This document shows, piece by piece, positions 1,570 through 25,607 of a DNA stretch of 34,725 nucleotides (position 1 is its first letter; the number at the start of each line of letters is the position of its first letter). Origin of the DNA: a virus. The stretch covers positions 1-34,725 of IMG/VR virus record IMGVR_UViG_3300020219_000009; one strand, written 5' to 3'. The position numbers and the translations under genes are program-made. A model generated the notes under the pieces. It made no database searches. It was not told the DNA's origin and saw only the letters and a program-made list of their open reading frames with translations.

Positions 1570-2760
1570 ATGCCAGCATTTAATTTAACAAGTCAATCGG
1601 CTCTATTTAAAACTAAGTTCGGAAAGCTTTCTGAGAACGCTTACAACTCAGCTAACGTGATGTTAGGAACTATGAAAAAAGAATATAACTTTACTGGTGA
1701 AGACATGAAGGTAGCAGTACCTACATTTTTCGCGGGTGGAGTCGGAGCAGGAACTTTGCCAACGGCAAATCCAGCAAGCGCAGCAAAAGCAACTCTTACC
1801 GCAAAGCGCGTATACTCTGTAACTGAAATTGAGCGCGAAGCCTTAAAAGCCTCTTCAAATGACGAAGGTGCGTTTGTTGAAGCTATGAAGTGGAACGTAC
1901 AAAAGTCGGTTGAGTCTTATAACCGTTTTGCATCTTTCATCATGTTTGGTGATGGAACAGCGGCTTTAGGAACAGCTAACGCTAACGCTACGAATTCAGC
2001 GGCGGCTCCTTATATCGTGATTTCTTCGGCTACTTGGAAAGAAGGAAACTGGGAAGAAAACGATTACATCAATTGGGGCACAGATGCTTCTGTCTTCCGA
2101 ATTGACATTGTAGTTCCAGCGACTCGTCAAATTCGTATGACTCGTATTTCTGGAACTTTAGATTTAACTACTGCTGGATCAGGCGTAATTGCTTACATGC
2201 AGAATTCTAAAGACAAAGTTCCAAACGGCTTAAAAGGTGTTTGTGACGCGACAAGTGGAAATCTTTACGGAGTGGCTGTAGCTCGTAGATGGCAAGCGGC
2301 GCAAATTGCTGCTGGTGGCGCTGGTGTGTCTGCTGACGTACTTAATGAGCTTATCATTCGAGTACAAGCACGATGCGGCAAAGCTCCTAAAAAGCTTGTT
2401 ACTTCTTTCACTCAGTATCGCAAGATTTTAAACTTCTTAGAAAACCAAAAGGTTTACATGGTTGACCCTCGTGCTTCAGAATTAAAAGGCAAAGTGTCTT
2501 TTGCTGGTATCGAGTATATGTCTAACGCTGGACCTATCGGTATTTTCTCTGATCGTATGTGTGAAGATGACCGAGTTTACGCTGTAAACACTGACTTCAT
2601 TACCGCTTACCACAGACCTGACTTCGGTTGGTTTGATGATGACGGTACTGTTTTCTTACGGCTTGAAGGCTCAGATGCTTACTCAGCTCGTTACGGCGGG
2701 TACTATGAGAATTACATCATCCCTTCTTTCCAAGGTGTTGTTACAGGACTATCAATTTAA
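1570..2760 (+). CDS. Major capsid (coat) protein
   Basis: 396 residues, no signal peptide, with the mixed alpha/beta composition expected of an HK97-fold coat subunit. It follows the scaffold candidate at 30 bases with a strong ribosome site (CGGAGGGAG, 6-7 bases before ATG), as expected for the most abundant virion protein. It is followed by the most stable hairpin of the late region (2768-2801). The Gly/Ala-rich segment at about 55-75 and the long helix around 85-125 fit an N-arm and spine helix. The HK97 fold is inferred; placement and expression signals are direct. Confidence 0.82.
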   Translation: MPAFNLTSQSALFKTKFGKLSENAYNSANVMLGTMKKEYNFTGEDMKVAVPTFFAGGVGAGTLPTANPASAAKATLTAKRVYSVTEIEREALKASSNDEGAFVEAMKWNVQKSVESYNRFASFIMFGDGTAALGTANANATNSAAAPYIVISSATWKEGNWEENDYINWGTDASVFRIDIVVPATRQIRMTRISGTLDLTTAGSGVIAYMQNSKDKVPNGLKGVCDATSGNLYGVAVARRWQAAQIAAGGAGVSADVLNELIIRVQARCGKAPKKLVTSFTQYRKILNFLENQKVYMVDPRASELKGKVSFAGIEYMSNAGPIGIFSDRMCEDDRVYAVNTDFITAYHRPDFGWFDDDGTVFLRLEGSDAYSARYGGYYENYIIPSFQGVVTGLSI

Positions 2761-5682: not shown

Positions 5683-5897
5683 TGACTATTATCAGTGATA
5701 AAACAAGTGTCACTATTAGTCTAGTTCTTGGTTTGGTGGGTGGAGCTTTTTGGCTTTCATCGGTATTCTTCGAGGTGAAAGCGCACTCAAAAGATATTGA
5801 CCATATAAAAACACAACAACAAGATGAAATGCAGATTTTGATAGAGATTAGAGAAAGAATTATTAAACTTGAAACAGAAATTAAAAGGAAGTTATGA
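5682..5897 (+). CDS. Small membrane protein with coiled coil, lysis candidate
   Basis: 71 residues: one transmembrane helix at about 9-30 (TISLVLGLVGGAFWLSSVFF) and then a charged heptad-like helix to the end. An N-terminal membrane anchor followed by a periplasmic or cytoplasmic coiled coil is seen in inner-membrane spanins and in some holin-like proteins. Its start overlaps the adhesin stop by TAATG, and its own stop overlaps the next start by ATGA. A lipoprotein gene and a peptidase gene lie within 1.6 kb, which supports a lysis cassette. The specific role is inferred. Confidence 0.5.
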   Translation: MTIISDKTSVTISLVLGLVGGAFWLSSVFFEVKAHSKDIDHIKTQQQDEMQILIEIRERIIKLETEIKRKL

Positions 5898-6637
5898 GTA
5901 AATTAAAAGAAGAATTACATAAAGTAGTTGAGGCAGCATCGGAGCAGCTTGAGCAGATTTGCATAGCAATGGCTAGTGAATACGCAACAGCTCAATTAAA
6001 ACTCCAAGCAAAGCAGATTTCAAAAGTCTTAGAGCAAAAGCATCCAGAGTTATACGCTGATGCGGCGATAGATTCAATTTTACCGGAAGTTGTTGGGGAT
6101 ATTGCTGAAGACATTAAGACTGTTGAAGAAGCGGCTGTTATTAAAGCAGAAGAAAATTTATTAGTTGAGCCACTGATTGAGCCAGAAGTTATTGAGGAGG
6201 TCGTAGTTCTACCTATTCCAGAAGTAACTATTGAGCCTATGCCGACTCCTGAACCAGTAATAGAACCAGTAATTGAACCTGAACCAGTAGTAGAGCCTGA
6301 AGCTCCAATTGAGGAACCAGTAGTAGAGCCTGCAATAGAGCCAGTAGTTATTGAACCTGAGCCTGTTATTATTGATCCTGTTATTATTGATCCTGTTATT
6401 ATTGAACCAGTTATTGAACCAGTAGTAATAGAACCTGAGCCAGTTATTGAGCCTGTTATTGAGCCTGTAATAGAGCCTGTAATAGAACCTGAGCCAGTTA
6501 TTGAGCCTGTTATTGAGCCTGTTATTGAGCCTGTTATTGAGCCTGTTATTGAGCCTGAGCCAGTAGTAGAACCTGAAACCGTAGTTATTAAACCAGAAGC
6601 TCCAATTGAGGAGCCTGTTACAGAAGGAAACATATAA
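5894..6637 (+). CDS. Pro/Glu-rich VIEP-repeat protein
   Basis: 247 residues. Residues 1-90 are helical and soluble-looking (no signal peptide). About 95-240 are an acidic Pro/Glu/Val/Ile rod built from PVIEP and PEPV motifs, with about 25 repeats of a 4-residue theme. Such sequences make stiff, extended, highly acidic spacers. Starts with an ATGA overlap and ends with TAATG into the next gene, so it is co-translated with the small membrane and helical proteins around it. It could be a spacer that spans the periplasm, an interaction scaffold, or a virion appendage. No family is recognised. Confidence 0.65.
   Translation: MSKLKEELHKVVEAASEQLEQICIAMASEYATAQLKLQAKQISKVLEQKHPELYADAAIDSILPEVVGDIAEDIKTVEEAAVIKAEENLLVEPLIEPEVIEEVVVLPIPEVTIEPMPTPEPVIEPVIEPEPVVEPEAPIEEPVVEPAIEPVVIEPEPVIIDPVIIDPVIIEPVIEPVVIEPEPVIEPVIEPVIEPVIEPEPVIEPVIEPVIEPVIEPVIEPEPVVEPETVVIKPEAPIEEPVTEGNI
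6247..6595 (+). repeat. Short tandem coding repeats (12-bp theme) for VIEP units
   Basis: Degenerate 12-bp units of the form GTTATTGAGCCT or GTAATAGAACCT recur in tandem, densest at 6430-6560. They encode Val-Ile-Glu-Pro. Third-base variation among units (ATT/ATA, GAG/GAA, CCT/CCA) shows the peptide pattern is selected rather than the DNA alone, while runs of identical units suggest recent slippage. Confidence 0.85.
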
Positions 6638-7047: not shown

Positions 7048-7297
7048 TTTTCTTTTTTGGTCTTGTGCTCAATATAAGCCTGTTGAGGTCTTTGTCATAG
7101 ATAACAAAAAGCAAATTGCCTATGTTTACTCGGTCAAAGGCGTCAACAAGCGCACAGGTGAGTTTCAGCTTGAAGACAGGCCGATACAAAGCCTAGGGAG
7201 CGCAAAGTTTCAAAACGCTGTTTGCACGTCATACAAAGACTATAATTATTTAAACTACTTATGGAAAAGATACTTTTGGAATGTTAGCAACAATTAA
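7019..7297 (+). CDS. Putative small lipoprotein (outer-membrane), spanin candidate
   Basis: 92 residues. GTG start chosen because GAGGAGG lies 5-7 bases upstream, inside the preceding gene. The N-terminus is basic, then a hydrophobic stretch (IFLSSFLFWSC), with Cys16 as probable lipidation site. The Trp at -2 of the lipobox is unusual, so confidence is limited. The mature part has no long Pro-rich region as in Rz1. Embedded start, lipoprotein signal and adjacent peptidase make an outer spanin or an entry-exclusion lipoprotein plausible. Confidence 0.5.
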   Translation: MQLTKIFLSSFLFWSCAQYKPVEVFVIDNKKQIAYVYSVKGVNKRTGEFQLEDRPIQSLGSAKFQNAVCTSYKDYNYLNYLWKRYFWNVSNN

Positions 7298-7874
7298 AGC
7301 AAAGCTATTTTCCCTTTTAAAGCCTGTACAAAAGCTTATGCAACGTCTTGGCGCTAGAGAAAAGGTAATTACGGCGTTTCATGTGAACCAGATTCTTTCT
7401 ATGGTTAAGCCAGGTGATATTCTTTTAAGCTACGAAGCACAAAGATTTACAAGCGTTTTTATACCAGGAAAATGGGACCATGCCTCTATTGTTACAGAAC
7501 GGCTGGACGTAATGGAGGCCGTAGGCGACTTTTATATAAAAGGCGAAAACAAGGGCGGCGTTAGGCGTGTACAATTGATTGAGTGGCTTTACAAAAAAGA
7601 TCATGTGTCATTGATTAGGCCTCTGTTTGAGGACCCTTTAATCAATTTTAAAGCAGGGGAAAATGCAAACCGATATGAGGGGGAGGGATACGATTATTCG
7701 TTTTCTCTCAATAATGAAACTATTTATTGTTCTGAGCTGGTTTATCTTTGTTATCAGCCTCTAGACTCTTGTTTTATGAACCATATAACCAAAGAAATTC
7801 TACCACAGGACTATTTAAAGGCTTGTTTTTTTAAAGAGGCTAAGTTCGTGCTTCTGTATTCGACAAGAGTCTAG
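7281..7874 (+). CDS. Permuted papain-like hydrolase (YiiX/C92-like)
   Basis: 197 residues with the layout of circularly permuted NlpC/P60 enzymes: GDILLS at 45-50, His67 in KWDHASIV, a YDYSFSL segment at 137-143 and the nucleophile Cys150 in IYCSELVYLCY. In this family His precedes Cys, as here. Known members cleave amide or ester bonds in peptidoglycan peptides or lipids. No signal peptide; residues 1-25 form a basic amphipathic helix. The location at the end of the small membrane/lipoprotein cassette suggests a lytic enzyme for lysis or for wall penetration at entry. The start overlaps the lipoprotein gene by 17 bases with only a weak ribosome site. Confidence 0.75.
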   Translation: MLATIKAKLFSLLKPVQKLMQRLGAREKVITAFHVNQILSMVKPGDILLSYEAQRFTSVFIPGKWDHASIVTERLDVMEAVGDFYIKGENKGGVRRVQLIEWLYKKDHVSLIRPLFEDPLINFKAGENANRYEGEGYDYSFSLNNETIYCSELVYLCYQPLDSCFMNHITKEILPQDYLKACFFKEAKFVLLYSTRV

Positions 7875-7935: not shown

Positions 7936-8289
7936 ATGAATTCAAGATTAACAACGGAAGTCATGACGACTTTCAATAATACAACTGCGTTTAGCTCAGC
8001 CATTGATATTACTTCTTTCAATGGGGCGGCAATTGCTGTCTTAGTAACTGGGACGAGTGGCGCAGGCAACATGAAACTACAGGCCTCGCTAAACCCTGGT
8101 GATGATACAGCGTGGTTTGATGTCCCTGCGACTTTGGGCGGGGCAACAGTGTCTCAAACTATTACGATAGCGGCGCAGCACTACCTAAACACTGGCAACA
8201 TTGCTTTTTATCCTTCAGTTAGGGTTTCAATAACTTCTACCAACACAAACCCAATAGTCTGCACAGTAAAAGCTATGGGTAAGGGGTAA
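7936..8289 (+). CDS. Small beta-rich structural protein
   Basis: 117 residues, alternating Thr/Ser/Val pattern with strands such as AAIAVLVTG and MKLQASLNPGDDTAWFDVP, resembling a jelly-roll or Ig-like virion module. Preceded by ACTAGGGGTGAACTT as ribosome site after a 61-base gap that holds no other gene. It lies next to head-completion genes, so head decoration or tail attachment is possible. Family not recognised. Confidence 0.55.
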   Translation: MNSRLTTEVMTTFNNTTAFSSAIDITSFNGAAIAVLVTGTSGAGNMKLQASLNPGDDTAWFDVPATLGGATVSQTITIAAQHYLNTGNIAFYPSVRVSITSTNTNPIVCTVKAMGKG

Positions 8290-8291
8290 GT

Positions 8292-8762
8292 ATGAGTGAT
8301 TCTTTTCAGTTTCCTAGTTACACAAAAAGCAAAATTAGTATGTATGCCGATGATCAACCAGAACGGTCATACGTTAATTTGGCTGATAAAATAGGTAATC
8401 CAATCTCAAACGTAAAAAACTACACTGGTGGAGGGTTTACGGGAAACGAGCTTTCAAAAACTTCCTCTGGTAATTCTGGAATGAGTTTAACGACTTCGCC
8501 AAACATGGGCTTAGAAGACTATTCTCCTGCTGCCTCTGGTGGTGGTGGTGATGCTCTTGGCATGGGCGCTCTTGGTGCGGCTGGTGGTGCAAACCCTTAT
8601 GTGTTGGGCGCTATGGTGGGCCTTTCTTTAATGAAGCAACAGGCAGAAGATGACCGCGCAAAACGCGAGAAGCTGGCTTCTATCGAACAGAACAAAGGCC
8701 AGAACGAGGCTAATATTTTAAACAATATGTCAAACTATTATGGAAGGGCTTTATTACGATGA
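8292..8762 (+). CDS. Small Gly/Ala-rich virion-type protein
   Basis: 156 residues. The N-terminal half is polar and Ser/Gly-rich. About 80-115 is a hydrophobic Gly/Ala segment (ALGMGALGAAGGANPYVLGAM), followed by a charged helix (about 118-140) and an Asn-rich end. Hydrophobic Gly/Ala segments next to helices also occur in the three ejection-type proteins at 13475-17818, so this may be a minor internal virion protein. The stop overlaps the next start (ATGA, 8759). No domain is recognised. Confidence 0.5.
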   Translation: MSDSFQFPSYTKSKISMYADDQPERSYVNLADKIGNPISNVKNYTGGGFTGNELSKTSSGNSGMSLTTSPNMGLEDYSPAASGGGGDALGMGALGAAGGANPYVLGAMVGLSLMKQQAEDDRAKREKLASIEQNKGQNEANILNNMSNYYGRALLR

Positions 8763-19376: not shown

Positions 19377-19533
19377 CGTGTAGCTCCTTAATTTTTAGTT
19401 GTTGTTTCAGTTCTTCTATTCGTTTTTGTACATAAATTAATTCTTCACTTAGCTTTTTCGTTTTCTTGTAAATGTGCGCTCGCTTACGCTGTAGAAATAG
19501 AAACTCTTTAACTCTAATTTCTATTTTTGACAT
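19348..19533 (-). CDS. Small coiled-coil protein, unknown
   Basis: 61 residues, Lys/Glu/Leu-rich with heptad spacing from about 20 to 50 (KKTKKLSEELIYVQKRIEEL). Start overlaps the previous stop as TAATG. Together with the following gene it looks like a pair of small helical proteins that might interact. Not recognised. Confidence 0.55.
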   Translation of the reverse strand: MSKIEIRVKEFLFLQRKRAHIYKKTKKLSEELIYVQKRIEELKQQLKIKELHDDTIKKRTE

Positions 19534-19877
19534 TAGTTGTTTTCAACCTCTCTAAATTTTGTGGTGCGAACAAACCCCGCATGATGGATTCCAGCGTCTG
19601 CCGCTAGCTCTGCTGACGCGTGATATATATAATATTGAAGACCTGTAGGCAGCTCGTGAGTATTAACCCAAATTTCCTGTGGCTCTTCGATGAGTGTGAA
19701 TATTGTTGCACCGGGACGGAACAAATCAACTCGTCCGTTTTGATCTTTCAACCAAAAAGCATCTTCTTCATCATCATAGCCGATGACTTTAAAAGAATCG
19801 CATGGCTTAACGTCATCTTTTACTTTATAACCAAACTTTTCGCCTTGTGCCTTGTGTATCTCTTTTAGTGTTTTCAT
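19533..19877 (-). CDS. MKTLKEIH-family small protein, long copy
   Basis: 114 residues. The N-terminal 65 residues match the preceding gene (MKTLKEIH.xQ.E..GYKVK, KVI.YD, then FR...T.FTL), followed by an extra C-terminal segment (VNTHELPTGLQYYIYHASAELAAD, then FVRTTKFREVE). The first 23 coding bases are identical between the two copies, indicating recent tandem duplication. Beta-rich, no Cys cluster, no membrane segment. Probably an early host-interaction protein, but no known function. Confidence 0.6.
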   Translation of the reverse strand: MKTLKEIHKAQGEKFGYKVKDDVKPCDSFKVIGYDDEEDAFWLKDQNGRVDLFRPGATIFTLIEEPQEIWVNTHELPTGLQYYIYHASAELAADAGIHHAGFVRTTKFREVENN

Positions 19878-20074
19878 TGGTTTACTTTCTCAAGCGTGAA
19901 ACACGTTAAAGTTGAACGAAACCAATCGGGTTTATCGTCATTTATATTTATTAAAAAGAAAAGATCGTAATCAGAATCGTAACTGATGACCTTCATAACC
20001 TCGCCACTTTTACTTTTCACCTTGTAACCAAGATTTTCATCCTGTGACTCGTGTATCTCTTTTAGTGTTTTCAT
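19874..20074 (-). CDS. MKTLKEIH-family small protein, short copy
   Basis: 66 residues, equivalent to the N-terminal domain of the following gene and lacking its C-terminal segment. Ribosome site GAGG in the end of the preceding gene; the start follows that stop directly (TAAATG). ATGA overlap with the long copy makes the two a coupled pair. Not recognised. Confidence 0.6.
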   Translation of the reverse strand: MKTLKEIHESQDENLGYKVKSKSGEVMKVISYDSDYDLFFLININDDKPDWFRSTLTCFTLEKVNQ

Positions 20075-20233
20075 TTAATCCTCAACCTCTGCCATTAGTT
20101 CAAATTGATCTGTGTAAGCTTGCCACCGCCAAATATCCCCGTTATCAGACAACCAATAAAGATGCCAATTTTCGAACCTATCGTCGATTAAAAAAACATA
20201 ATCATCAATGTACGGATACCAATATATTTTCAT
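20075..20233 (-). CDS. MKIYW-family microprotein, copy 4
   Basis: 52 residues from ATG 20233; a longer reading from 20263 is rejected because this ATG overlaps the preceding stop as ATGA and aligns with the start of the paralogs. Motif MKIYWYP.IDDYVF at 1-14, then WLSDNGDIW and a C-terminal F-E segment. Acidic, aromatic and beta-rich. Member of a family of at least three, probably four, small proteins in this operon. No function known. Confidence 0.65.
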   Translation of the reverse strand: MKIYWYPYIDDYVFLIDDRFENWHLYWLSDNGDIWRWQAYTDQFELMAEVED

Positions 20234-20325
20234 AATACGCCGATGTAAATTAAACCGACCCAATTTTTGTCCTCAGCAATTTGAATTATGTCTAGTCTGT
20301 AATTGTAATAAACATAGATTTTCAT
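20230..20325 (-). CDS. MKIY-family microprotein, short or decayed copy
   Basis: 31 residues (MKIYVYYNYRLDIIQIAEDK at the N-terminus), with GAGGTAGT directly before ATG and ATGA overlaps at both ends. It shares MKIY and the aromatic N-terminus but lacks IDDYVF. Either a degenerate paralog kept for translational coupling or a divergent functional microprotein. Confidence 0.5.
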   Translation of the reverse strand: MKIYVYYNYRLDIIQIAEDKNWVGLIYIGVL

Positions 20326-20462
20326 ACTACCTCGCATATAAATTCAAAGTCTCTTGTGTATATTTGCGCATACCATGTCTTGCCAGTATCGGACAGCGCA
20401 TAACCGTAACAGGCGTATATAAAAACATAATCGTCGATTATCGGATACCAATATATTTTCAT
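20322..20462 (-). CDS. MKIYW-family microprotein, copy 2
   Basis: 46 residues, MKIYWYP at 1-7 then IDDYVF at 9-14, ALSDTGKTW in the middle and DFEF.CEV at the end. ATGA overlaps on both sides (20462 with the upstream zinc/HTH gene, 20325 with the short copy). Shares the first ten or so codons almost exactly with copies 1 and 4 at DNA level. Not a known family to me. Confidence 0.65.
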   Translation of the reverse strand: MKIYWYPIIDDYVFIYACYGYALSDTGKTWYAQIYTRDFEFICEVV

Positions 20463-20749
20463 AATATTCCTCGCTTAGTGCAGCCCCTAGATAACCAAGA
20501 CCTAGCGACCCCAAGCTTTTTAGCAATGTCCGATTTTGTCATATATTTTGATCTTAAATATATTACTTGGTCCCAATCTAGTTTAGACGGCCTACCCTTG
20601 TAAGTAGTTCCGTTTAGCTGCGCTTTTTTACTTGAAGCTTGTCCATTTAAAACTTTTATTTGTACGATTTTCTCATGTACTTCTTTTGTAATTGTTCGCC
20701 TGCATTTCGGGCAAGGCTTTCCGATGTTGTTTTTATCCGATAGGTTCAT
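20459..20749 (-). CDS. Small HTH DNA-binding protein with CxxC pair
   Basis: 96 residues from ATG 20749, which overlaps the preceding stop (ATGA); four extra upstream residues are rejected. CPKC at 13-16 is half of a possible zinc site. Residues 52-90 (GRPSKLDWDQVIYLRSKYM, then SDIAKKLGVARSWLSRG) form a Hin/resolvase-type helix-turn-helix (HTH_7-like), with no recombinase catalytic domain. Probably a regulator or a DNA-binding nuclease accessory. It sits between two MKIYW-family genes in one coupled chain, suggesting shared regulation or function. Confidence 0.65.
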   Translation of the reverse strand: MNLSDKNNIGKPCPKCRRTITKEVHEKIVQIKVLNGQASSKKAQLNGTTYKGRPSKLDWDQVIYLRSKYMTKSDIAKKLGVARSWLSRGCTKRGIL

Positions 20750-20904
20750 TTTACCCCACATATAAATTCAAGCTTTAACGAGTCAAAAAATGGCGCTAAC
20801 CATACTGTGCTGTCAGTATGCCGATCATACGAGTAGTAAGCCCGATCAAATTCACCATAATCAAAAACGTAATCGTCGATATATGGACTCCAGTATATTT
20901 TCAT
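20746..20904 (-). CDS. MKIYW-family microprotein, copy 1
   Basis: 52 residues: MKIYWSP.IDDYVF at 1-14, tyrosine- and aspartate-rich middle, LEFICGVK end like copy 2 (FEFICEVV). GGAGGTAGAAG precedes ATG; the start overlaps the previous stop. The opposite-strand frame at 20790 is a shadow. Function unknown; the family is acidic and small, properties shared with many phage inhibitors of host enzymes, but that is only an analogy. Confidence 0.65.
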   Translation of the reverse strand: MKIYWSPYIDDYVFDYGEFDRAYYSYDRHTDSTVWLAPFFDSLKLEFICGVK

Positions 20905-21149: not shown

Positions 21150-21376
21150 TCTTCTGCCTGCTCGTTTATTTTTATTCCGCAAATAGTTGTAGGGCAGGCA
21201 CGACCTGTGGGGATATAAAAAGAAGGTCCCGAATTGTAAGCTACATACTCAATTGCTCGTTTTGCTTCCTTGGTTACTGTTATTGCTAAAATCCCAGAAC
21301 CGCAAGAGAGTTTATCAACCTCGTTCTTTAGTTCAAGTAATGCCTCTATGAGGCCGCTGATGTTACTTCTTTTCAT
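21146..21376 (-). CDS. Small protein, unknown
   Basis: 76 residues: an N-terminal helix (SGLIEALLELKNEVDKL) then an Ile/Ala segment and a C-terminal PTTICGIKI. Three Cys. ATGA overlaps at both ends. No recognised family. Confidence 0.55.
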   Translation of the reverse strand: MKRSNISGLIEALLELKNEVDKLSCGSGILAITVTKEAKRAIEYVAYNSGPSFYIPTGRACPTTICGIKINEQAEE

Positions 21377-21612
21377 ACGCCCATCGCTAATAAACTAAAC
21401 ACGACTCGCTCCGCATCTATTGGATAGACGTCACCGATTTTGAAATATAAGTCAGTAACGTCTGTAACATACAAACCGTCTCGAACAAGATGTAAAGTAA
21501 CCGTATCACCTTTTTGAAAAGCTCTGTCGTTAACTCTAATTTCAAAAGTCTTAGTGCCTGCTGCTACGTTGTTGTAATGCTCCGGTGCTATTTTTAAATT
21601 ATGATGATTCAT
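21373..21612 (-). CDS. ASCH-like / DUF3850 small protein
   Basis: 79 residues matching the compact DUF3850/ASCH pattern: HNLKIAPEHYNNVAAGTKTF, EIRVNDR, FQKGD, then strands ending VVFSLL. ASCH/PUA-like domains are predicted RNA or nucleotide binders; phage DUF3850 proteins are common early genes with no proven role. Starts and ends with ATGA overlaps. Confidence 0.8.
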   Translation of the reverse strand: MNHHNLKIAPEHYNNVAAGTKTFEIRVNDRAFQKGDTVTLHLVRDGLYVTDVTDLYFKIGDVYPIDAERVVFSLLAMGV

Positions 21613-22340: not shown

Positions 22341-22691
22341 TCACTTGTAACTACTTTGACTAGTCCACGTTGCTATAATTGCAACCCCACAATGGAGGCA
22401 CTTATAAGCCCCATCAAAAGGGTTACATGGCTCATGCTTACATGGTATTTTAGGGGCCTCTTTTATAAATAATAATTTAGCTTCGTATGTCGCTGTTACT
22501 GGTAAATCTCCCCAAAAGCGTTTCAAATTCCATGTAATGCCAACCGCGTCTGGCTTTCCGTCGTATGTGTAAACAGTGGGCGCAACTCTGACTAGGTTTG
22601 CTAGTTTTTCATTAACAAAATTGGCACAAGCTTTGGCCTGGTCATCAAATTCTACGTATTCATTAAAATCTTCTTGGGTAAATAGTTTCAT
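22341..22691 (-). CDS. Small zinc-ribbon-like protein, unknown
   Basis: 116 residues. Residues 1-80 are alpha/beta (FNEYVEFDDQAKACANF, then WNLKRFWGDLPV). C-terminal CKHEPC (84-89) and CLHC (98-101) form a likely zinc site. Ribosome site GAGAGGGATTGA overlaps the stop of the 20-residue membrane peptide. Nucleic-acid or protein binding is possible, but no family is assigned. Confidence 0.6.
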   Translation of the reverse strand: MKLFTQEDFNEYVEFDDQAKACANFVNEKLANLVRVAPTVYTYDGKPDAVGITWNLKRFWGDLPVTATYEAKLLFIKEAPKIPCKHEPCNPFDGAYKCLHCGVAIIATWTSQSSYK

Positions 22692-24139: not shown

Positions 24140-25069
24140 TTACAAATCTTGAAGCTGTGCCGCTATAATTTCGTCGTCGCTTGGATTATGCACAGGCTCA
24201 TTAAAAAGTTCTGTTCTCGGTGACTTTAAATATTGAGTAGCCATAAAATGGTATTCTGCTGCCTTGCCGCTTAGCGGTTTTGCAGACTCCTTAACTCCTT
24301 TATCTAAGTAGGCGATCATTCCTAAGTGATCTTTGTCTGTGAAGTCATGCAGCTTTTTATTCATCATTTTTTTACCAAACCCGATAACATAATTATCTAG
24401 TTCTGATTGCGGCGCATTTTGAACTAAAGGCTCTGGCTCCTGCTCTTGAGCGTTTTCGCTTTTAATTAAAATAGGACTTGGGACCAGCTCCTCTATTTTT
24501 GAATTACCAAAAGCGTTGGGCATTTGTGGGTTCTGCGTGGCTTGAATTGATGCTTCTGAAATTGTGTCAAATTCTGATTCGTCGATAACACCAAGACCGG
24601 ATATGGCTAAGGTCACTCGCCGCTTGGCTTTAGTAACTGCTTTCATCCTAGCATTAGCTAACGGAAGTCCTGTAAGCCGCTTCCCATACTTATCGAATAA
24701 ATAGAGTGAACTAATGTCTTCATCGGTCCGGCCGTGCTTATCCATTGCTCTAACGTGTACCTCGTAATAATCATCCGACTCGGTCCGGCTAACTATTTGA
24801 ATACTAACAGAGTTTATTTTTCGCAATTGCTCTGAGCACTCTTTTCTAGCGTACAGCGTGAGCTTTCCGTCTAATATAATATATGCAAAAGGTTGTGTTA
24901 ATGGGTTTAAGCCTACGGACTGGCATACAGCATTGTAGTAACTAATGCGCTGGCCTGTGTCTAGCTTGCTCAAGTCATTCATCGCTAGAGCACTCTCTAC
25001 CGCTGACAAGTGATTTTGAGAAACTAGCGCCATGATGCCTTTTTGTGGAAGTGTTATTTCTTTAGCCAT
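24140..25069 (-). CDS. RecT/Bet-like single-strand annealing protein
   Basis: 309 residues. Residues about 45-175 follow the RecT/Bet core: YNAVCQSVGLNPLTQPFAYI, a KLTLYARKECSEQLRKI strand-helix, SIQIVSR, the KHGRTDED turn, and the helix ANARMKAVTKAKRRVTLAI ending GLG.IDESEFD, equivalent to the MKA...R..GF.G..D.DE region of Bet. Such proteins anneal complementary single strands and drive phage recombination or concatemer formation. The C-terminal 130 residues are acidic, Pro/Gln-rich and probably bind a partner. No exonuclease is recognised beside it; the Gp157-like gene overlaps upstream. Confidence 0.75.
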   Translation of the reverse strand: MAKEITLPQKGIMALVSQNHLSAVESALAMNDLSKLDTGQRISYYNAVCQSVGLNPLTQPFAYIILDGKLTLYARKECSEQLRKINSVSIQIVSRTESDDYYEVHVRAMDKHGRTDEDISSLYLFDKYGKRLTGLPLANARMKAVTKAKRRVTLAISGLGVIDESEFDTISEASIQATQNPQMPNAFGNSKIEELVPSPILIKSENAQEQEPEPLVQNAPQSELDNYVIGFGKKMMNKKLHDFTDKDHLGMIAYLDKGVKESAKPLSGKAAEYHFMATQYLKSPRTELFNEPVHNPSDDEIIAAQLQDL

Positions 25070-25607
25070 TTGTTACTTCTTTCGTTTTTTGTTTTTTGTC
25101 TGGAAGGTTTGGAAAGACACGAATTGATTGCGCAATCTTAAGCTCTGCTCCCTCAACCTTTTCGCCACGCTTTAACGCTGCCTTAACTTCATCTTTTTTA
25201 ATTTCAGTGGTGATCACTTCTGTTTTGAATTCTACAGGAACCATTTCAGGATCATTAATAACTAATGACCCGGCTGAATTCGTAAGTTTAAAACGAATTT
25301 CAGAACCTTTGATTTCAGACTGGCCTAGTTCGTTCATTGCGTAAATTAGATTTAACTTTAAACGCTTTGCTGCGTTTTCACATTGCACAGCTACTTTATT
25401 ATAGAATTCGGCTTGTTGTTCGTAAAAGGATTCTAGCATTTCAAAGCGGTCTAAAATTGTGCTGTAGCCATCTACTTTTAAAGCCAGCTCAGAGGCATTA
25501 ATTTGTAAAAAAGATTCAATGTCGGGAGTCATTTCGCCGCCTGACTCGACCAGCATTTGTTCAATGTTGGCCGTCTCTGAAATTATAGTAACAAGTGATT
25601 TGTTCAT
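25062..25607 (-). CDS. Gp157-like protein
   Basis: 181 residues with the typical Gp157 layout: an N-terminal helix and coiled coil (about 40-100, ending KRLKLNLIYAMNELG), then IKGSEIRFKLTNSAGSLVI, DPEMVPVEF, and the KKDEVKAALKRGEKVEGAEL helix. Family members are found next to phage recombination genes; a role in protecting phage DNA or in resistance has been suggested, but the biochemistry is unclear. Start by TAATG overlap; it overlaps the annealing gene start by 8 bases, so the two are coupled. Confidence 0.85.
   Translation of the reverse strand: MNKSLVTIISETANIEQMLVESGGEMTPDIESFLQINASELALKVDGYSTILDRFEMLESFYEQQAEFYNKVAVQCENAAKRLKLNLIYAMNELGQSEIKGSEIRFKLTNSAGSLVINDPEMVPVEFKTEVITTEIKKDEVKAALKRGEKVEGAELKIAQSIRVFPNLPDKKQKTKEVTNG

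Follow-up and report, generated by a model that had tools for sequence, protein, structure and literature searches.

The locus analyzed here raises the question of what a chain of very small proteins sharing one N-terminal motif does in a phage operon, and of how several versions of the same protein came to stand so close together. It lies in IMGVR_UViG_3300020219_000009, a 34,725-base IMG/VR record of an uncultured tailed phage, which was analyzed over its full length and is referred to here as the window. The plus strand of the window carries the terminase and capsid genes. An early-type operon with some 39 predicted genes occupies the minus strand from 30.2 to 17.8 kb, and we take it to be expressed early because of its position and gene content. 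The major capsid protein (1570-2760, plus strand) has at least 128 relatives in IMG/VR, and a tblastn search found no match for it among 50,697 cultured phage records; the best listed matches of the terminase are about 25% identical. Judged from sequence, this capsid lineage is an uncultured phage lineage.

Several other features of the window deserve mention. Amid the structural genes on the plus strand, a YiiX/YaeF-type permuted papain-like amidase is encoded at 7281-7874 (Peptidase_C92, E 8.3e-15). The gene at 5894-6637 in the same region and on the same strand specifies a protein that consists mostly of EPVIEP repeats; the 213-aa antisense open frame opposite to it (5992-6633) is probably a by-product of the repeats. 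In the early-type operon, a gene for a 309-aa protein (24140-25069, minus strand) adjoins a Gp157-like gene (25062-25607, E 4.8e-25), a position that is the usual site for a recombination protein, and the 309-aa protein was without a match in Pfam, PHROGs, and PDB. A scan of the window for Rfam families and tRNA genes revealed none.

A narrow family of undescribed microproteins

The cluster of interest extends from position 20904 to position 20075 on the minus strand. It begins with C1 (20746-20904, 52 aa), which is preceded by a strong Shine-Dalgarno sequence, GAGGAGG, and has its best relative in another phage record, L009 (8558-8710). C1 is followed by the gene for a small CPKC/helix-turn-helix protein outside the family (20459-20749), hereafter the HTH gene, whose product measures 96 aa from the ATGA start and would measure 100 aa from an in-frame upstream ATG at 20761. 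Next come C2 (20322-20462, 46 aa), similar to C4 and to a gene of the record L004; C3 (20230-20325), a 31-aa open reading frame that starts with MKIY and has an ATGA overlap at each end; and C4 (20075-20233, 52 aa), similar to C2 and C1. C1, C2, and C4 are the three proteins of 46 to 52 residues starting with MKIYW.P.IDDYVF that an earlier note on this DNA had described. The chain of overlaps that it reported is likewise borne out, every junction from 20904 to 20233 being an exact 4-nt ATGA overlap (C1/HTH, HTH/C2, C2/C3, and C3/C4, plus the junction upstream of C1), while C4 meets the next gene as TAA-ATG and not as ATGA. Directly downstream of C4 lies a pair of tandem paralogues (19533-19877 and 19874-20074, minus strand), both carrying MKTLKEIH..Q.E..GYKVK and 84% identical across the first 61 nt; sequence comparison gave no support for considering this pair as kin of the MKIYW proteins.

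The similarity among C1, C2, and C4 is far beyond chance. In searches within the record, C4 matched C2 at 58% identity (E 4.4e-10) and C1 at 42% identity (E 1.4e-5), and none of 500 shuffles equalled the score of any pair of the three. The earlier note had counted C3 as a fourth MKIY copy, but this frame agrees with the others only in MKIY, and homology to the family could not be demonstrated. Its shuffle z scores (3.2 against C4, 2.1 against C2, and 0.2 against C1) derive mainly from the MKIY start, its protein scores were reached by 6 of 500 shuffles for C4 and by 21 of 500 for C2, and its DNA showed no significant similarity to any of the copies. We also considered whether a frameshift had turned a fourth copy into C3, whose 3' end resembles that of C2 (TTTAATTTACAT-CGGCGTATTATGA), but the likeness was not convincing upon shuffling (P 0.08). 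C3 is possibly a degenerate copy of the family gene.

Profile searching, as proposed in the earlier note, confirmed single copies in four other IMG/VR phage records, labeled L004, L009, G030, and L397, compared with three in the window. The 60-aa member in L004 (6001-6183) was found by searching IMG/VR with the three window copies (profile E 2.4e-12), and the 50-aa member in L009 (8558-8710) by scanning for the motif as a DNA pattern. A profile search of the records with related capsid or DUF3850 genes yielded the 59-aa member in G030 (E 4.6e-9 with a model built without G030), and a looser DNA pattern yielded the 55-aa member in L397 (E 9.5e-8 with a model built without L397). The stricter pattern scan of viral DNA recovered only L009 and L004; the looser scan added L397 and found G030 again. 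In the seven proteins, which range from 46 to 60 aa, M1, I3, Y4, W5, D11, Y12, F14, W35, E45, and V50 (C4 numbering) are invariant. The family signature, defined as a start with MKIYW or MRIYW, D11-Y12-x-F14, a Trp at position 30 to 44, and E-x-x-x-x-V near the C terminus, is present in all seven and missing from C3. All seven proteins are acidic (pI 4.0 to 5.5), and 17 to 28% of their residues are aromatic. The earlier note had made the status of these frames as genes depend on the recurrence of the motif in related phages and on conservation between the copies at the protein level. The motif is found in four other phages, including the nearest capsid relative of the window, and dN/dS values of about 0.3 to 0.4 indicate protein-level conservation, from which we conclude that the frames are genes.

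The suspicion that no described family has this motif was equally well founded. Pfam, PHROGs, and NCBIfam gave nothing above cut-off or with E <1e-3 (best E 0.11), the family was unmatched among the solved structures in the PDB, tblastn against cultured phages and plasmids produced chance-level matches only, and a literature search for the motif found no mention of it. Among bacterial genomes, a related-locus search revealed no relative, and neither 369 genomes of one class nor 297 of one phylum yielded a member when searched by profile; these profile negatives say little, and the bacterial sampling comprised strict patterns and these two groups only. A scan of bacterial DNA for the pattern returned 60 stretches, of which the best profile match, a 35-residue Flavobacterium frame without an MKI start, was taken as chance. 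Taken together, the MKIYW family is real, undescribed, and narrow, while its kind, that of phage early accessory microproteins, is familiar.

Distribution and origin of the copies

The family is patchily distributed. Among 84 records with a related capsid gene (80) or a related DUF3850 gene (4), only G030 carries a member, many of the 80 capsid-sharing records being fragments. G030 is the nearest capsid relative of the window, with a capsid protein that is 73% identical. In L009 and L397 the terminases are unrelated to that of the window and the amidase genes also differ, and the gene set of L004 is different as well. The neighbors of the family gene also change from phage to phage. In L009 it is flanked by genes for a DUF3850 protein and a membrane-type peptide, in L004 it lies beside a relative of the window gene at 22341-22691, and in G030 and L397 its neighbors are unnamed genes. 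As to the HTH gene that the earlier note had seen interleaved with the copies, there is indeed one, in the gap between C1 and C2 only, but none of the four other phages has a counterpart of it beside its family copy. Given this patchy presence and these varying neighbors, the MKIYW gene is best regarded as an independent accessory gene and not as part of a fixed two-gene system. None of the genes adjoining the cluster was recognized as having a known counter-defense or take-over function.

Two further observations concern these phages. The window contains a DUF3850/ASCH gene (21373-21612, minus strand) that is 83% identical to that of L009 (8707-8943, minus strand), which directly precedes the L009 MKIYW gene. 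Such identity across phages points to a recent exchange of early genes among them. In L004, the coding region at 8139-8351 (plus strand) contains an array of 9- and 12-nt repeats (CAGCAGAGT/CAGCAAGGT types), and long open frames exist there in several registers.

The earlier note explained the copies by repeated duplication in place. In its full form, this explanation holds that a tandem duplication was followed by divergence, that the HTH gene was caught between the copies, and that the copies diversify against a changing host target. It is not without merit: three copies lie inside 830 nt, C2 and C4 are 58% identical and have 25 identical nt in common that span the start and include four upstream of the ATG, and the adjoining MKTLKEIH pair has clearly arisen by tandem duplication (84% identity over 61 nt). 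However, C1 is nearer to the L009 protein (alignment score 134; 50% identity, E 1e-13) than to C2 (95) or C4 (80), and the tail of C4 shares 20 exact nt with the G030 gene and not with C2. C2 itself scores about equally with C4 (121) and with L004 (118), the identity to the latter being 45 to 60%, depending on the alignment. A tree in which the window copies were forced into one clade had a poorer fit (p-AU 0.02 with 54 columns, a test of little power); in the tree of all seven sequences, with about 50 aa and long branches, no branch was supported and the order of duplication was not resolved. In view of these similarities across phages, in-place duplication as the main process appears doubtful, and we consider that the versions accumulated by exchange or gene conversion, alongside which C2 and C4 possibly arose by duplication.

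The proposed diversification of the copies fares no better. Pairwise dN/dS, calculated only for pairs with measurable dS, was 0.30 for C2-C4, 0.39 for C1-C2, and 0.32 for C1-L009, that is, below 1 wherever it was measured. Even in the fast-evolving middle part of the same pairs, pN (0.44 to 0.52) remained below pS (0.63 to 0.74), synonymous sites being near saturation, which limits the power of these estimates. No sign of diversifying selection, as suggested in the earlier note, is seen among the copies; constraint is strong at the N terminus and looser in the middle.

Conserved gene ends and probable translational coupling

Protein-level conservation is highest at the two ends of the MKIYW genes, and these ends are conserved at the DNA level too. 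The 18 nt GAATTTATATGCGAGGTA (20328-20345, minus strand) specify the C-terminal EFICEV of C2, include GAGGT, a Shine-Dalgarno-like sequence for the gene that follows, and are identical in L004 and L009; the counterpart at the end of C1, before the HTH gene, is GAATTTATATGTGGGGTA (20752-20769, minus strand), with 2 mismatches. At the other end, ATGAAAATATATTGGTAT, the conserved 5' end of C2 (20445-20462, minus strand), is identical in C4 (20216-20233) and L009. The start ATGAAAATATAYTGG and the end GAATTTATATGCGAGGTA(AAAT) constitute exact stretches of 16 to 22 nt that are common to different phages and are among the longest exact DNA matches in the regions compared. Identical codons numbered 111 at the N-terminal end versus 77 expected from codon usage and 60 at the C-terminal end versus 38, an expectation that ignores shared ancestry, which may account for part of the synonymous identity there.

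Within the C-terminal codons of both C2 and C1, a GAGG- or GGGG-type sequence is found at the usual spacing to the next start. The conservation of the C-terminal end is sufficiently explained by this arrangement, because the GAG GTA codons provide the next gene with its Shine-Dalgarno-like sequence. In bacteria, ATGA pairs have been established as sites of termination-reinitiation, which an intragenic Shine-Dalgarno sequence often aids (PMC6728339). The MKIYW genes resemble these pairs in their 4-nt stop/start overlaps and in the Shine-Dalgarno-like sequence within the upstream gene, and no clear difference is apparent. The arrangement is common across this operon: ATGA overlaps, which the earlier note had treated as a special feature of the cluster, occur at 13 of the 38 junctions of the early-type operon, and the unbroken run that holds C1 to C4 extends upstream by a further three junctions.

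It has also been proposed that phage mosaicism is driven by conserved boundary sequences where genes adjoin (discussed in PMC3029335), and the MKIYW genes are comparable in that short identical end DNA occurs in otherwise different phages while the interior has diverged. Conceivably, the ends ATGAAAATATAYTGG and GAATTTATATGCGAGGTAAAATGA could act as joints that combine a translation-coupling signal with a recombination arm, by which phages would swap and stack versions of a host-targeting microprotein in an early-operon array of cassettes with interchangeable middles. We regard this as a long shot. In contrast to the boundary sequences, the ends here are coding and under protein-level constraint, so that recombination is not required to account for their conservation. 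Elsewhere in L009 (7314-8023, minus strand), a 55-nt element occurs at three gene junctions, where it joins a gene end ..ECGE to the next start, with MWRN.MK in two of the three; in this it recalls the ends that recur among the MKIYW genes.

Possible function and comparison with known systems

Structure prediction, another check proposed in the earlier note, yielded five beta strands in C4 (2-5, 13-16, 24-28, 35-38, and 45-49), with moderate confidence only; the best model of C4 that AlphaFold built with the seven sequences had a pLDDT of 67 and a pTM of 0.44, and the other four models reached 47 to 53. Fold searches with the C4 model gave nothing at E 0.001 or better. The nearest matches were small uncharacterized phage proteins, such as the small all-beta phage proteins in BFVD (e.g., A0A6H0X746, TM 0.62/0.59), which are alike in length and overall model shape, but at a non-significant E of about 1. 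WW and SH3-like domains share an aromatic beta hairpin with the predicted structure. The profile match to the WW-domain protein Prp40 (E 0.21) and the SH3 folds among the matches are both non-significant; the former is weak and isolated, and with a Trp spacing of 25 to 39 and no fixed Pro, a WW domain was rejected, while the comparison with an SH3-like barrel rests on the five strands predicted at pLDDT 67. A match to Cas12b was treated as chance, as it concerned only 32 residues of C4 (15 bits, E 0.0019) and left C1 and C2 unmatched. No catalytic pattern is visible in the family proteins.

The reading that we prefer, with a probability of roughly one half, is that the MKIYW protein is a small, acidic, aromatic, predicted all-beta early protein encoded by a laterally moving single gene, versions of which have been collected in this phage, and that it is likely a host-directed binder. 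The gene would move between phages as a self-contained unit without a constant partner, and the copies in the window would owe their presence as much to lateral exchange or gene conversion as to in-place duplication. They would be translated by coupled termination-reinitiation, the conserved C-terminal codons doubling as the Shine-Dalgarno sequence of the next gene. The product might then bind a host protein early in infection, in host take-over or counter-defense, with the conserved W, Y, F, D, and E residues serving as a scaffold or contact face and specificity residing in the variable middle. Binding to a host protein is the step of which we are least sure; operon position and composition make it the most plausible role, as this is a small acidic beta protein from an early-type operon, patchy in occurrence and without a fixed phage partner.

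A role internal to the phage, for instance as a subunit or regulator of its own replication or transcription, would suit the early-operon position and the acidic aromatic composition of an adaptor equally well. Yet the gene is absent from almost all capsid-sharing phages and present together with different core genes, so that no fixed phage partner is evident, and we consider such a role unlikely.

Less probable still is an anti-CRISPR-like operon, in which the microproteins would inhibit a host defense system and the HTH protein would be an Aca-type autorepressor. An early operon in which a small HTH gene adjoins genes for small acidic proteins of an undescribed family fits this arrangement, which is used in guilt-by-association searches (PMC11065993). 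The HTH protein matches Pfam HTH_7 (E 1.7e-5, 25.3 bits versus a cut-off of 23.8). However, it has no NCBIfam match near cut-off, its gene sits inside the operon without a counterpart beside the family in the four other phages, and PADLOC scores were at chance level only. A seed search of IMG/VR and a search of cultured phages revealed no relatives of the HTH protein, and its AlphaFold model (pLDDT 47) was uninformative. It was also considered as a serine-recombinase remnant and rejected as such, since only the HTH_7 domain matches and a catalytic part is lacking. A toxin-antitoxin or other two-gene module of microprotein and HTH protein, suggested by adjacent coupled small genes of which one has an HTH domain, is highly improbable in view of a microprotein that stands alone among four different sets of neighbors in the other phages. 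What weakens both explanations is that the HTH gene does not accompany the family in the other phages.

In conclusion, with the MKIYW proteins the dark portion of phage early operons gains a small, well-defined, and undescribed family, whose clean sequence signature and relatives in distinct phages make it searchable and testable. Should the proteins be host directed, the versions found in nature, in which the frame is fixed and the middle varies, would form a ready set for finding the host target of each. The stacked copies, moreover, illustrate how early accessory genes accumulate within one phage. The early regions of tailed phages carry small accessory genes for host take-over or counter-defense, such as those for T7 Gp2 and anti-CRISPRs. 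The MKIYW family, known from sequence alone, differs from these in that no sequence relation to them was found, but it is like them in being small, encoded in an early operon, patchy in distribution, and represented by few relatives in otherwise different phages.
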